A stretch of DNA of 64,000 bases from Pseudomonadota bacterium. Its GTDB lineage: Bacteria; Myxococcota_A; UBA796; GCA-2862545. The position numbers and the translations under genes are program-made. The notes under the pieces were generated by a model. The model ran no database searches. It had not been told where the DNA came from and saw only the letters and a list, made by a program, of their open reading frames with translations. Position 1 is the first letter of the stretch. Each line of letters begins with the position of its first letter. Shown here one piece after another: positions 54,149 to 64,000 of the stretch. The stretch is taken from contig SXOB01000028.1 of the NCBI GenBank assembly GCA_005776945.1, positions 62,001-126,000 of the forward strand, written 5' to 3'.

Positions 54149-54198
54149 GCTGCCTCACCGGATCGACGCATGATAAGGTATCCTTGGCGTTGAGGCAC

Positions 54199-55119
54199 AT
54201 GAAGGCTGACGTACAAGGGCTGGAGGATGATCCGACGGAAGTGCGCGGCGTCGTGGTGGACGTGCCAGCCGAGCGCGGGGATGAAGCGGCCTACGTCGTC
54301 GTTCAGACGGGCCGCGCCGTGGGGCGTGTCCATCGGCTGGGTGGAGGGGCGGTGTTGCTCGGGCGGGTCCCGACGGCGGACGTCGTTCTCATGGACGAAG
54401 GGGTCAGCAGGGAACACGCGCGAATCGAACACGATGGTGGCCGCTCGTGGCTGATAGACCTAGGTTCAACCAACGGAACGTGGTTGGAGGGCGAACGCGT
54501 TGGGCGGGTGGCGCTTCCCCTGCGCGACGGCGACCGCATCCGGCTGGGTCCGACCACGCTGCTCAAGTACGGATTCCAGGACACCGTCGAGCAACGCTTC
54601 CTCAACCAGTTGTACGTCGCAGCGACGCGAGACGGGCTGACGGGGGCGTTCAACCGGCAGTACTTCGCCGAACAGATCGAGGTGGAAGTCCTCTGGCACC
54701 GCCGGCATCGAGAGCCCTTGTCGTTGTTGATGGTCGACATCGACTGGTTCAAGTCGGTCAATACGCGCTTCGGCCACCCCGCTGGCGACGTCGTCCTTCG
54801 CGACGTGGCCCAGACGCTGCAAAACGGGGTGCGAGGCGAAGACGTCGTCGCCCGCGTAGGCGGTGAGGAGTTCGCCATCGTGCTGCGCCGCACCGTCCGC
54901 CCCGAGGCGGTCAACTTGGCCGAACGGCTGCGGCGCTCGGTCCAGGAACTGCAGGTCACGTGGTCGGGCGAGGCGATTTCGGTGACGCTCAGCGGGGGCG
55001 TAGCGACCCATGCTGGGGGCGAGACCATCGACGCAGGGACGCTCATCGCCCAGGCGGATTCGGCGTTGCGGAGTGCCAAGGAACAGGGCCGCAATCGAAT
55101 CCTGGCCGACGGTAGCTGA
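54199..55119 (+). CDS. FHA-GGDEF diguanylate cyclase
   Basis: 306 residues. An FHA phosphopeptide-binding domain (about 35-125; GR55-56, SREH70-73, TN91-92) is joined to a GGDEF domain. The active site reads GGEEF (221-225) and the RxxD inhibitory site RGED (212-215) lies five residues ahead, so c-di-GMP synthesis with product inhibition is expected. Binding of phosphothreonine on a Ser/Thr-kinase substrate would couple the kinases of this genome to c-di-GMP. ATG 54199 with GAGG upstream is preferred; TTG 54184 with AAGG upstream is an alternative. Confidence 0.88.
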   Translation: MKADVQGLEDDPTEVRGVVVDVPAERGDEAAYVVVQTGRAVGRVHRLGGGAVLLGRVPTADVVLMDEGVSREHARIEHDGGRSWLIDLGSTNGTWLEGERVGRVALPLRDGDRIRLGPTTLLKYGFQDTVEQRFLNQLYVAATRDGLTGAFNRQYFAEQIEVEVLWHRRHREPLSLLMVDIDWFKSVNTRFGHPAGDVVLRDVAQTLQNGVRGEDVVARVGGEEFAIVLRRTVRPEAVNLAERLRRSVQELQVTWSGEAISVTLSGGVATHAGGETIDAGTLIAQADSALRSAKEQGRNRILADGS

Positions 55120-57924: not shown

Positions 57925-59238
57925 TCAGCCTCCGGCGCGTTGCACGAGGTACCGCGCGGCGCGTGCGACCCGGTCATGAGGGTGGGACGCGAGGCGCTTG
58001 GCGCGGGCGAGCAGAGCACTGTCGCGACGGTCGCACAGCACGATGAGGGCAGTCTCGACCTCACTTGGCCGGGCGGCGCGAACCCAGAAACGCCACCCTG
58101 GGACCTGAGCTCGGTCCAGGACGTCGTGGAACGGGGACGTGTCGACGTCCGGTGCCGCATCCAGGATTCGCTGGACTTCGGCGACGCGGGCCTCCCAATC
58201 AGGCTGCTGCAGGAGGGCCACCAGGCGTGGTCGCGCCTCTTCCGGCGTCAGCCGGGTCGGGGGCGGCGTAGACGGATCGAGCTCGAGGAAGCGGAGCCGC
58301 CCCGCTTCCGGGTGCCCTTCAATGCCGCGCACCTTGCGCCGCTCGTGGGCGGCCGACGCCGCGGCGGCCGTCAATGCGGGAACGTCCATGGGTCGGCCCT
58401 GAGCGCGGAGGATGCCGTCCAACGATGACGCAACCTCGGCCATCGAAGGCCGCTGGGACGGGTCGTAGGCCAACATGCGCACGATGAGTTCGCGCAGCGG
58501 ACCGGGGTCGGCGAGTCCCTCGGGCTCCACTCGGGCCGCTGCGACTCGAGAAGCGCGGCCATGGGCCTCGCCGTCGGCGGTGAGCAGGAGCGCCTTTCGC
58601 GTCAGAAGGACGAAGAGGGTGACGGCGAGGGCGTAGACGTCGCTGCCGGGGCTGTCCTTGCCGTCGCCGAGGCGGCGTTCGGGCGCGTCGTAGCCCGCCG
58701 TTCCCGCGACGTTGTAGAGGCTCCGTGTCCGCCGGTCCGCGAAGTCGCCGGTCGCGATGCCGAAGTCCAGCAGTTTGATCGTGCCGTGGACGTCGACCAT
58801 TGCGTTGGCGGGCTTGACGTCGCGGTGGACGATGCGCATCGGCTCGCCCGCCGTTCCGTACTGGCCGTGGTAGGCGGCGTGAAGGCCGTCTGCCAGCTGC
58901 ATCGTTGCCGCGATGGCCGCCTCCCAAGGCAAGCCGGCCGGCCGGGTGACGAAGAGCTCTTCGAGCGTGGCGCCTCGGATGTAGTCCATCACGAGAACGG
59001 GACGTCCGTCGTAGTCGAGGATGGGATCGACGCCGACGATTGCAGGATGTCGCAGGGCTCGCAGGATGCGGGCCTCGTCACGGAATCGGTTCAACGCGGT
59101 GGGGTCGGCGAGCCAGGGCTCGCGAAGCACCTTCAGCGCGACGAGTCGCCCGTCGCGACGGCGGTCGCGCGCCACCACAACCAGGGCGAATGCCCCGGTC
59201 CCCAACAACTCGACGAGTTCGAAATGGCCGTGGGACAA
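57925..59238 (-). CDS. Ser/Thr protein kinase with C-terminal helical repeats
   Basis: 437 residues, TTG start. Kinase features: GTGAFALVV glycine loop, K36, HRDVKPAN (D140), DFG (D158) and GTAGYDAPE. The C-terminal ~110 residues ([30 protein letters not shown] ...) form HEAT-like helices. There is no transmembrane segment. It converges on the sulfatase gene with eight bases between stops and is followed upstream by DUF3810 in the other direction. Confidence 0.87.
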   Translation of the reverse strand: MSHGHFELVELLGTGAFALVVVARDRRRDGRLVALKVLREPWLADPTALNRFRDEARILRALRHPAIVGVDPILDYDGRPVLVMDYIRGATLEELFVTRPAGLPWEAAIAATMQLADGLHAAYHGQYGTAGEPMRIVHRDVKPANAMVDVHGTIKLLDFGIATGDFADRRTRSLYNVAGTAGYDAPERRLGDGKDSPGSDVYALAVTLFVLLTRKALLLTADGEAHGRASRVAAARVEPEGLADPGPLRELIVRMLAYDPSQRPSMAEVASSLDGILRAQGRPMDVPALTAAAASAAHERRKVRGIEGHPEAGRLRFLELDPSTPPPTRLTPEEARPRLVALLQQPDWEARVAEVQRILDAAPDVDTSPFHDVLDRAQVPGWRFWVRAARPSEVETALIVLCDRRDSALLARAKRLASHPHDRVARAARYLVQRAGG

Positions 59239-61351: not shown

Positions 61352-61787
61352 TCAGGCCAAGCGAGCGAAACGCTCCGCCCGCTTCGCGGCATGGTCGCCG
61401 TCGTTGGCGCGGTCGAAGAGCACACGGGCCGTGAAGAGTCGGCCTAGAGCAAGCGTTCGCCTACGCGCGGTCGCCTCCTCCACCGGCCAGCGGTGGATGG
61501 CCTCGCTCGACGGCGTCGCGCTCGAGCATTTGCCACGCGGCCGACAGGATGAGGCGATCCACGCGCCGTCCCCAGGCATCCCAGGGTTCGTGACGCGGCG
61601 GTTGGGCTTCGGCGGCCCGCGCAAGTGCGGCCAGGTGATTGGAGGCGTCGAGGCCCAACGCGGCGAGGCCGGGTGACAGCGCGGCGGCGCGCTCGGCGGG
61701 CACGCGAGCACGCCACTCGGTCCAGATCGGGCTCGTGGAAGCCAGGGGGTCGAGGTCGGCCGGAGTCGGTGGATCGGAATACGTCAA
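61352..61787 (-). pseudogene. Truncated acyl-CoA dehydrogenase
   Basis: From ATG 61787, residues 40-95 (ALGLDASNHLAALARAAEAQPPRHEPWDAWGRRVDRLILSAAWQMLERDAVERG) match the N-terminus of acyl-CoA dehydrogenases of the AidB-like group, then the frame stops after GGGGDRA. A shifted frame continues to 61352 (TLALGRLFTARVLFDRAN ... ERFARLA), which weakly resembles the C-terminal helices of the same family. The whole catalytic middle (about 400 residues) is missing, so the gene is dead. The C-terminal match is tentative. Confidence 0.5.
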
Positions 61788-61830
61788 TGGCGCTCCATCG
61801 TGGCTTTAGCGCGAGGGGTGGGGGTGTGAT

Positions 61831-64000
61831 TTGCGGGGGACTCATCTCCACGACCATGTCGCTCTGTTGGCGGAACTCGCCCGGAAAGGCGAACGGGTGG
61901 ACGTCGAGGACGTCACCCGCCGCGGGCGTGCCCTGCATGAGCGCCTTCGGGCCTTGGGTCACGAGCGCCTTCGTGCGGACGTTTCGGCCCTGTTGCAGGC
62001 CGCGAACGCGCCGGGACAGACCGGCTTGGCGGCGCAGGCAGGTTTGGGGGCGCTGACGCGCAACGATGCGCTTCGGCTCGATCCCATCCCGCCCATGGCT
62101 CTACGGTCGGCCACCTTTTTGGGTGGCCTCTTCCATCACTGGGTGGCCCGTTCGCGCGGCGACACAGCCCACGCCCAGGCGGCCCCCCTGCCGGCGTCCG
62201 CGCGCGAGCGGGTCGATCGGGAGGTGTCGGACTTCGAGGTCGCCGACCGAAGCGACGGAGAGTGGGCCGCTGCCGCGCGCGGCTGGGTCGGCCAGTCGAC
62301 CTTGCCCGAGAAACATCCCATCGTTCGCCGTATGTTTCGGAACGCGGAGTTCCTTGCCGTCGTGTTGGAAACGCCAGACGAGCGAGTGCCCGACGACGTC
62401 GCTCGCGCGCGCGCCGCCATTGCGTGGCTCACGCGGGGGCCAGCGCGACAGGATGTCCTGGAGGCGGTCGAAGACGCCTACGTGCTCGACCAGGCCGTCA
62501 CCGCCATCGAGCCGGCGCGAGAGCCGTGGATCCGGCTGATTCAGGCGACGACCTCGACGTGGCCCGTCTTGTCGCAGCTGACGACTGGTGACCGGACGCT
62601 GGTACTCAGCCGGTCGATTCTGCAGGATGCAGCGCTCCTGGCTGAACCCCTCGCCGTTTCTCAAGGAACGCTCGACGACGCCCTGTTTGTGCCGGCGGCT
62701 GGAAGCGTTCCCTTGTTGCTCGGTCTCGTAGGCGCGCTGGAATACCTGTTCGAACTGGACGATGTGCTTCGCGAAGCCGACAGTGAGGTCGCGCCGGACC
62801 TCGACCGGTTGAGCTGGCTCGCCCGGAACGCGCCGCGAGGCCCGTTCGTCCTCGTCGTCGCGCCGACCGGTCCCGCGCGCTCGCTTTTTGAGGGCGCGAC
62901 GCTCGGCGGTCGGCCTCTGACGTCGGTCTTGCCCTGCGCCGAAGTGCTTGACGATCGAAGTCTGCGCCGTTTGGGGCCAGCCGGGGGACCGGCGCTGTTG
63001 CTGGTCTGTGGTCAGCTTTCGCTTGCGGCGTCGTTGTTGGCCGATCGGCCAGACGACGCGCGGCTTGTCATCGTCGACCTGGCCCTGGCCGGCGCCGAAG
63101 AGGGCGTGGACACCTCGCCCGTTCGCACGCGCACGCTGCGTTCAGGGGACCACCGACCTGCAACCACCGACCTGTACGAGACGTACGCCGAAGAGGCCGG
63201 CGACATCGACCGGATGTCGGTCGACCGGGAATCGGTCCTTTCGATCGAGGCCATCGCAGCGCGCGCCGAGATTCTCGAAGCCGCCGTCGATCTGGGCCCC
63301 ACCGTCGACCAGTTTTTCGAGGCCGACAATGTTCGGGCCGAAGAGCTGCTGAGCCACTTCCGCAACCTCTGGGCGGACGGGGAGCCGGACCGAGCTGAAA
63401 CGATGGCCGCGCTCGACGCTCTGGGAATGGCCGACGAAGGGTATCGGGCCGTTCTCAAGGGCTTGGACCACGATGTCCGCCAGTTGCTCACGCTGAGGAT
63501 GATGACGGACCCCGTCACGACGGCCCGAAGGCTCGACGAGATCGGGCGACGAATCCGTGTCCCCGCTGACCGATTCCTCGAGGCGGCCGACCGCGTGACG
63601 CGCGCGGGAGCGCGGTTGGACCGCGTCGTCGACGAGTTCACCCAACGCAACTTGCGCCTCGTGTTGTGGATGGCGCGCAAGTACCGAAACCGGACGTTCT
63701 ACTTGGACATGATCCAGGAAGGGAACGTCGGTCTGATGCGGGCCGCCCGCAAGTTCGACCACCGAAAGGGCGCCAAATTCGGCAGCTACGCGGGGTGGTG
63801 GATTCGGCAGTCGATCGAGGGCTTCCTTTCGCGCCACAGCCGGACGATCCGCATTCCCGTCAACACGTTGGGCCTGATGCGCCGAATTGGGCGCGCGGAA
63901 ATTGAGCTTGCGGAGGCCAAGGGTCGGTCGCCGACCGACGACGAGTTGGCGGCGCACACGGGCATCCCTGTCGACGAGGTCACGCGCGCGCGGCGGGTGG
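61831..64000 (+). CDS. RNA polymerase sigma-70 factor with a long N-terminal extension (runs off the right edge)
   Basis: The frame is open from about 61810 to the window edge; TTG 61831 with GAGGGG/GGGGG upstream is a plausible start. From residue 607 the sequence has clear sigma region 2 (NLRLVLWMARKYRNR ... MIQEGNVGLMRAARKFD ... SYAGWWIRQSIEGFL) and region 3 (RTIRIPV ... RSPTDDELAAHTGI). Before it lie about 600 residues, the last 150 perhaps equivalent to regions 1.2/non-conserved region. The first 430 match nothing I recognise, but include beta-alpha blocks (FVLVVAPTGPARSLFEG; ALLLVCGQLSLAASLLADRPDDARLVIVDLAL). Region 4 is outside the window. Confidence 0.75.
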   Translation, partial: MRGTHLHDHVALLAELARKGERVDVEDVTRRGRALHERLRALGHERLRADVSALLQAANAPGQTGLAAQAGLGALTRNDALRLDPIPPMALRSATFLGGLFHHWVARSRGDTAHAQAAPLPASARERVDREVSDFEVADRSDGEWAAAARGWVGQSTLPEKHPIVRRMFRNAEFLAVVLETPDERVPDDVARARAAIAWLTRGPARQDVLEAVEDAYVLDQAVTAIEPAREPWIRLIQATTSTWPVLSQLTTGDRTLVLSRSILQDAALLAEPLAVSQGTLDDALFVPAAGSVPLLLGLVGALEYLFELDDVLREADSEVAPDLDRLSWLARNAPRGPFVLVVAPTGPARSLFEGATLGGRPLTSVLPCAEVLDDRSLRRLGPAGGPALLLVCGQLSLAASLLADRPDDARLVIVDLALAGAEEGVDTSPVRTRTLRSGDHRPATTDLYETYAEEAGDIDRMSVDRESVLSIEAIAARAEILEAAVDLGPTVDQFFEADNVRAEELLSHFRNLWADGEPDRAETMAALDALGMADEGYRAVLKGLDHDVRQLLTLRMMTDPVTTARRLDEIGRRIRVPADRFLEAADRVTRAGARLDRVVDEFTQRNLRLVLWMARKYRNRTFYLDMIQEGNVGLMRAARKFDHRKGAKFGSYAGWWIRQSIEGFLSRHSRTIRIPVNTLGLMRRIGRAEIELAEAKGRSPTDDELAAHTGIPVDEVTRARRV

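Follow-up and report, generated by a model that had tools for sequence, protein, structure and literature searches.

An extended sigma-70 factor with a putative DrmE-like module ahead of its core regions

The locus and its orthologues

The window, i.e., the whole stretch of 64,000 bases analysed here (G000:C20:62001-126000), derives from a 3.88-Mb draft genome of 92 contigs and breaks off within a long gene encoding a sigma-70 factor (Table 1). The original prediction had described a frame running without a stop to the edge, ending in sigma regions 2 and 3 and placing about 600 residues ahead of region 2. We found that this frame follows an in-frame stop at 61807-61809, its earliest possible start being the TTG at 61831, and that the contig sequence, which coincides with the window end base for base, closes it intact at 836 codons. 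Pfam recognized region 2 from residue 605 onward (E 4e-14, 52.6 bits against a cut-off of 24), region 3 (E 9e-12, 45.4 bits, cut-off 25.3) and, past the edge, where the original prediction had advised looking for it, region 4 at residues 774-826 (E 3e-15, 56.1 bits, cut-off 24.1). With all three regions above their Pfam cut-offs, the protein is a member of the sigma-70 family.

Table 1. Features of the extended sigma gene and its surroundings; positions refer to the window and residues to the 836-aa product.
Feature	Position	Strand	Remarks
Putative FHA-GGDEF fusion protein	54184-55119	+	Resemblance judged by eye
Serine/threonine protein kinase	57928-59238	-	Near the sigma locus; Pkinase E 2e-34
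Hypothetical protein, 254 aa	60583-61347	+	Matches no family; flanked by the DUF3810 gene and the AidB remnant
AidB-type acyl-CoA dehydrogenase remnant	61464-61787	-	AidB_N only, 108 codons; 26.9 bits; divergent
Extended sigma-70 factor (RpoD/RpoS-type, DrmE-like N-terminal module)	61831-64000	+	TTG start; stop 341 bases beyond the window edge; 836 aa
Helical N-terminus, residues 1-94	61831-62112	+	Conserved in orthologues from residue 8
Helical DUF1232-like domain, residues ~95-247	62113-62571	+	Pfam match in one orthologue; match to a DrmE-family protein
Alpha/beta domain, residues ~248-425	62572-63105	+	Homology to a portion of DrmE-family proteins
Low-confidence linker, residues 426-445	63106-63165	+	AlphaFold, alignment
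Residues 446-600	63166-63630	+	Expected place of region 1.2 and the non-conserved region; region 1.2 similarity weak
Sigma-70 region 2, residues 605-671	63643-63843	+	Pfam; clade-specific E-G in region 2.4
Sigma-70 region 3 (start), residues 684-760	63880-64000	+	Pfam; runs past the edge; region 4 wholly beyond the edge

A search with residues 1-510 of the window protein retrieved orthologues of 837 aa (L026) in a further species from the same genus (G001) and of 878 aa (L027) in another genus of the family (G014). The three sigma fusions can be aligned from residue 8 to the end, and this conservation supports the TTG start. A profile of the three N-termini pointed to a fourth carrier (G032) from another family of the order, where the gene lies in two pieces: contig C187 terminates in 594 of its codons, and contig C359 in the N-terminal 175. 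We infer that the two pieces form one gene, each contig being interrupted within it. Homologues keeping the same fusion, which the original prediction had proposed to seek, are thus encoded by three other genomes of the order, bringing the carriers to 4 of its 63 genomes. No further sigma fusion was detected among 379 genomes sampled across the phylum, and when one genome from each GTDB species was scanned with two seed patterns, just the two loci already found came up. As for a public record titled ‘Klebsiella pneumoniae’ MAG (L034), it holds the same locus as G001, a genome that cannot be Klebsiella, and is apparently mislabelled.

The rare TTG start and the draft state of the 92-contig assembly could raise the suspicion that two genes have been joined by a frameshift, a misassembly or a wrongly chosen start. 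However, the same architecture and length recur in independent assemblies, and codon-position G+C follows one steady pattern along the 836-codon frame with no frameshift signature. Because the orthologues share this architecture, we regard an artefact as excluded for practical purposes, and with it the separation of the N-terminal part from region 2 by a frameshift or internal start, which had been named as the outcome that would overturn the original prediction.

We observed that the blocks EPAREPW and DAALLAEPLA of the N-terminal module are invariant across genera, which argues for selection on the module. Within the genus, identity amounts to 46% in the alpha/beta part vs. 82% in the sigma part; such faster N-terminal divergence would suit a regulatory module and, equally, a loosely constrained sequence. 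The quick divergence, the degenerate motifs described below and the restriction of the fusion to four genomes of the order might also be read as signs of a passive relic, i.e., a decayed, functionless domain tolerated since the sigma part suffices. We consider this very doubtful, as the frame is kept open in all four lineages, the blocks mentioned above have not drifted between genera, and both domains are retained in the same order with a confidently predicted fold.

In the window, the AidB_N remnant lies 43 bases from the sigma start, while in G001 and G014 an intact AidB-type acyl-CoA dehydrogenase gene diverges from the sigma gene, with a start-codon spacing of approximately 63 and 101 bases, respectively. 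The trxB gene follows the sigma gene in the window genome and G001. No AidB neighbor was found next to the gene of G032, which lies on short contigs. The neighbors scanned comprise AidB, trxB, rhomboid, LON-type, DUF3810 and kinase genes. Seven of the order's 63 genomes have an AidB gene, and in five of these seven the sigma fusion is absent. Since E. coli induces aidB via Ada and sigma-S (PMC4437013), control of aidB by the extended factor would be a natural guess, but common synteny accounts for their proximity equally well.

The N-terminal module and its kinship with DrmE

AlphaFold, given residues 1-470 and an alignment of 21 rows, predicts residues 8-247 to be all-helical and residues ~250-422 to adopt an alpha/beta fold with pLDDT mostly around 90, followed by a low-confidence linker (~429-452), which in the G014 orthologue is acidic and approximately 25 residues longer. 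Folded alone, the alpha/beta part reached a pLDDT of 84 and a pTM of 0.84. The beta/alpha layout ascribed by the original prediction to the first 430 residues therefore holds for residues 250-422 but not for residues 8-247, and the VLVVAPTG and VIVDLAL segments singled out as strands are indeed both strands of the predicted alpha/beta domain. Its elements are arranged in the order ALFV strand, PAAGSVP loop, long helix, FVLVVAP strand, helix, short strands, ALLLV strand, helix and RLVIVD strand. As we read it, this layout is similar, with weak backing from fold searches, to that of the first RecA-like domain in DEAD/DEAH helicases, the positions of motifs I, Ia and II being degenerate; the degenerate helicase-like motifs of the domain lie at residues 284-298, 339-346 and 411-418.

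Across the orthologues, PAAGSVP, PATGTVP, PTAGSTP or PTGGRAA stands in the Walker-A-like loop, and DLAL, DLAV, DFEV or DPAC at the DExx position. The Walker A GK[ST] and DExx motifs that characterize P-loop NTPases and SF2 proteins are conserved in none of the orthologues, and as the invariant Walker residues are absent from all of them, ATP hydrolysis by the module seems unlikely. Of the two folds suggested originally, a nucleotide-binding-like alpha/beta layout is retained, but a receiver is not, there being no Pfam Response_reg match in any orthologue; the degenerate loop and DExx position speak against the enzymatic domain that had also been considered, and neither Pfam nor NCBIfam supports a receiver or enzyme domain. 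The sensory domain acting as a direct signal-to-promoter switch, likewise put forward originally, is still plausible. Foldseek gave no significant match for the module: SF2 helicases made up 10 of the first 31 matches, none of them significant (best DDX41, E 0.39, TM 0.36-0.38). The whole N-terminus yielded nothing against PDB and BFVD in Foldseek, nor did a sequence search of PDB. Weak Pfam matches, at E 0.01 or worse, to AAA_27, DUF7125 and Capsid-VNN were taken as chance. A match to a TPR protein of G175 (E 5e-4; 2e-5 to 2e-4 in another search) is also probably fortuitous because it covers only around 48 residues.

The N-terminal profile matched twice (8e-12 and 4e-10) a 1081-aa protein (L076, G285:C71) encoded by a genome of another class (G285). 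This protein scores 105 bits with the DrmE_fam model (cut-off 80) over residues 425-1077 and shows weak DrmE_C and DUF1232 matches; G285 also encodes DrmB (418 bits, cut-off 240). When run as separate profiles, the two halves of the module reached 2.5e-11 (DUF1232-like) and 1.5e-11 (alpha/beta) against the G285 DrmE, and none of 300 shuffles of the latter came near these scores. The alpha/beta half aligned with residues 427-500, i.e., inside the part recognized by DrmE_fam. Taken by themselves, the initial strand and loop of the alpha/beta part gave no significant alignment to this protein; homology to DrmE is thus firm for the DUF1232-like part and, within the alpha/beta part, for its second half. 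The closest relative found for the module is a DISARM DrmE-family protein rather than a sensor kinase or receiver. The relationship, detected through the G285 DrmE, is limited to the N-terminal part of the fusions, which gave no match with DrmE_fam or DrmE_C and so fall outside the DrmE family as these models delimit it. Similar to DrmE (NF038316, Pfam DrmE_C), the fusions possess a DUF1232-like helical domain followed by an alpha/beta segment with VVAP, GxPLxxxLP and LLVV; unlike DrmE, they are devoid of DrmE_C and the other later DrmE parts and continue into a sigma factor instead, and their carriers lack DrmB. In L076, the N-terminal DUF1232-like domain lies outside the NCBIfam DrmE match, which hints at how DrmE N-termini are composed.

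In the G014 orthologue, the helical part is matched by Pfam DUF1232 (PF06803; E 8e-5 and 1.7e-4) at 21.7 bits, just under the gathering cut-off of 23, while the window protein shows no such Pfam match. A profile of the helical part also retrieved stand-alone DUF1232 proteins of approximately 180 aa from another class, down to E 3.5e-7. These YkvA-like proteins correspond to residues ~95-247 of the fusion. In contrast to it, they consist of a single domain and keep a PDDLIPD loop that the fusion has lost. Many of them are encoded in the class of G285 (L079-L097), where the PDDLIPD and GYLDDAIM motifs are conserved, C-terminal tails are often basic and some genomes possess two or three copies.

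Given that the best relative of the module is a DrmE-family protein, the extended factor might be a regulator of defence, its module sensing phage infection as part of, or as a derivative of, a DISARM- or MZA-type system and its sigma part activating defence genes. There is a precedent for this in MzaA, a sigma-like protein that is a member of a defence system (PMC9523054). Like the extended factor, MzaA of the MZA system (NF041931, PDLC02203) carries a C-terminal sigma-70 part behind a long N-terminal part, yet the likeness is confined to the sigma part, the only part matched by MzaA models, and the score of 217 bits against a cut-off of 800 rules out MzaA membership. Moreover, DrmB, the product of a DISARM core gene, was not found in any of the four carriers, in which no DISARM system is thus recognizable, and the neighbors are housekeeping or metabolic genes (aidB, trxB, DUF3810, rhomboid) and do not form a defence island. 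We therefore hold a defence regulator to be improbable. A phage or plasmid origin of the fusion was also rejected: in phages only sigma parts matched, and the N-terminus of the G001 orthologue had no plasmid match.

Place among sigma-70 factors

All four carriers hold separate RpoD and RpoS-like genes, the RpoD gene of the window genome being truncated by a contig end. A tree built from regions 2-4, with long branches, above all that of G032, unites the extended factors in one clade (support 100/99) apart from the RpoD and RpoS-like clades. The extended factor is not the housekeeping RpoD (group 1). NCBIfam models of RpoD, RpoS and MzaA match it over residues ~565-830, with scores that in each case fall well short of the curated cut-off; the RpoD models NF004208 and TIGR02393 gave 224 bits against 555 and 208 (208.5) against 354, respectively.

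Regions 2, 3 and 4 within residues ~565-830 are RpoD-like, and the TKERIRQIE helix of region 4.2 is close to the TRERIRQIE of RpoD. In contrast to RpoD, the extended factor has no detectable region 1.1, in whose place stands the 430-residue DrmE-like module, and it differs in region 2.4. RpoDs of the order are mostly ~570-620 aa in total with region 2 near residue 340, in line with the original view that RpoD-type factors rarely have N-terminal extensions of this length. An HMM built from seventeen of them aligns to the extended factors only from profile position ~300, just before region 2, which disposes of the possibility, raised at the outset, that the N-terminal part is an ordinary RpoD non-conserved region. 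Neither Pfam nor this HMM detected a region 1.1 or an RpoD-like N-terminus in the extended factors; the N-terminal module occupies the place of region 1.1. As for region 1.2, residues 446-470 present a candidate that is plausible on inspection (DLLNRYMDEASAISRLTPEEE in G014), with a score no better than that of the best shuffle.

In region 2.4, all four extended factors carry E-G where RpoDs of the order have T-R and RpoS-like factors have A/V/I-R. At sigma-70 position 455 (E. coli numbering), they have N or G instead of H. Both changes suggest a set of promoters that would overlap that of RpoD without being identical to it.

Gating or targeting of promoter binding

The protein is very probably an alternative sigma factor of the RpoD/RpoS family with a module, shared with DrmE, that joins a DUF1232-like part to a dead RecA/helicase-like one. 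Most likely, this catalytically dead module gates or targets promoter binding. The best overall explanation, which we consider about evenly poised between right and wrong, is a group-2-like factor gated in cis by the DrmE-like module. In RpoD, region 1.1 keeps free sigma off DNA and fills the polymerase channel until DNA enters. A module of ~430 residues at this very position, attached by a flexible linker, would sit where it could gate either DNA binding or the formation of the holoenzyme, acting in cis on the sigma part. Unless a ligand or partner (nucleic acid, nucleotide or protein) is present, it might, like region 1.1 in RpoD, block promoter binding or the assembly of the holoenzyme; binding of the ligand would release the block, and a small set of promoters, perhaps including that of the divergent aidB, would then fire. 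We put this gating mechanism forward tentatively, at somewhat less than an even chance.

Alternatively, the sigma part could be active at all times, with the module adding specificity: a dead helicase-like module would bind a nucleic-acid structure or a partner and bring the holoenzyme there, e.g., to damaged DNA, replication forks or foreign DNA. Such targeting is consistent with the relationship of the module to a family from a nucleic-acid-targeting system, its helicase-like topology and weak DEAD-domain resemblance, the clade-specific changes in region 2.4, which suggest a special promoter set, and the aidB gene adjoining the sigma gene in two carriers. Yet no fold match of the module was significant, and the function of DrmE itself was left to future work, no activity being known for it (PMC9142583). 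We regard targeting, constant activity of the sigma part included, as plausible but rather unlikely.

Most alternative sigma factors of the RpoD/RpoS type are controlled from outside, through their level or by anti-sigma factors. A large conserved module at the position of region 1.1, as in the gated factor that we favor, would represent control in cis. Sigma-70 factors with N-terminal accessory domains are already known as a kind, since cyanobacterial cases are on record in which such a domain lies ahead of the sigma-70 core (PMC11119718). The accessory domains named in the text of that report are DUF6596, NB-ARC, WD40, ankyrin, TPR_MalT and others, with neither a DrmE-like domain nor DUF1232 among them (PMC11119718). 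In the literature searched, we found no description of a DrmE-like module on a sigma factor or of the extended-factor clade. What is new here is this module together with the clade, and the interest lies chiefly in an uncharacterized defence-protein fold being linked to transcription initiation; a fold connected with defence may directly control gene switching. Since DrmE, for which no role in DISARM is known, has the module in common with the sigma fusion, the transcriptional read-out of the latter would assay what the fold binds. A bolder and, in our judgment, distinctly less probable idea is that the module was acquired from anti-phage defence and, as an integral sensor for damage or abnormal nucleic acid, licenses the sigma part in cis. 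If true, the protein would be a one-piece switch that couples the sensing of DNA state to the choice of promoter without any anti-sigma factor, and it would offer a handle on the role of DrmE in DISARM.
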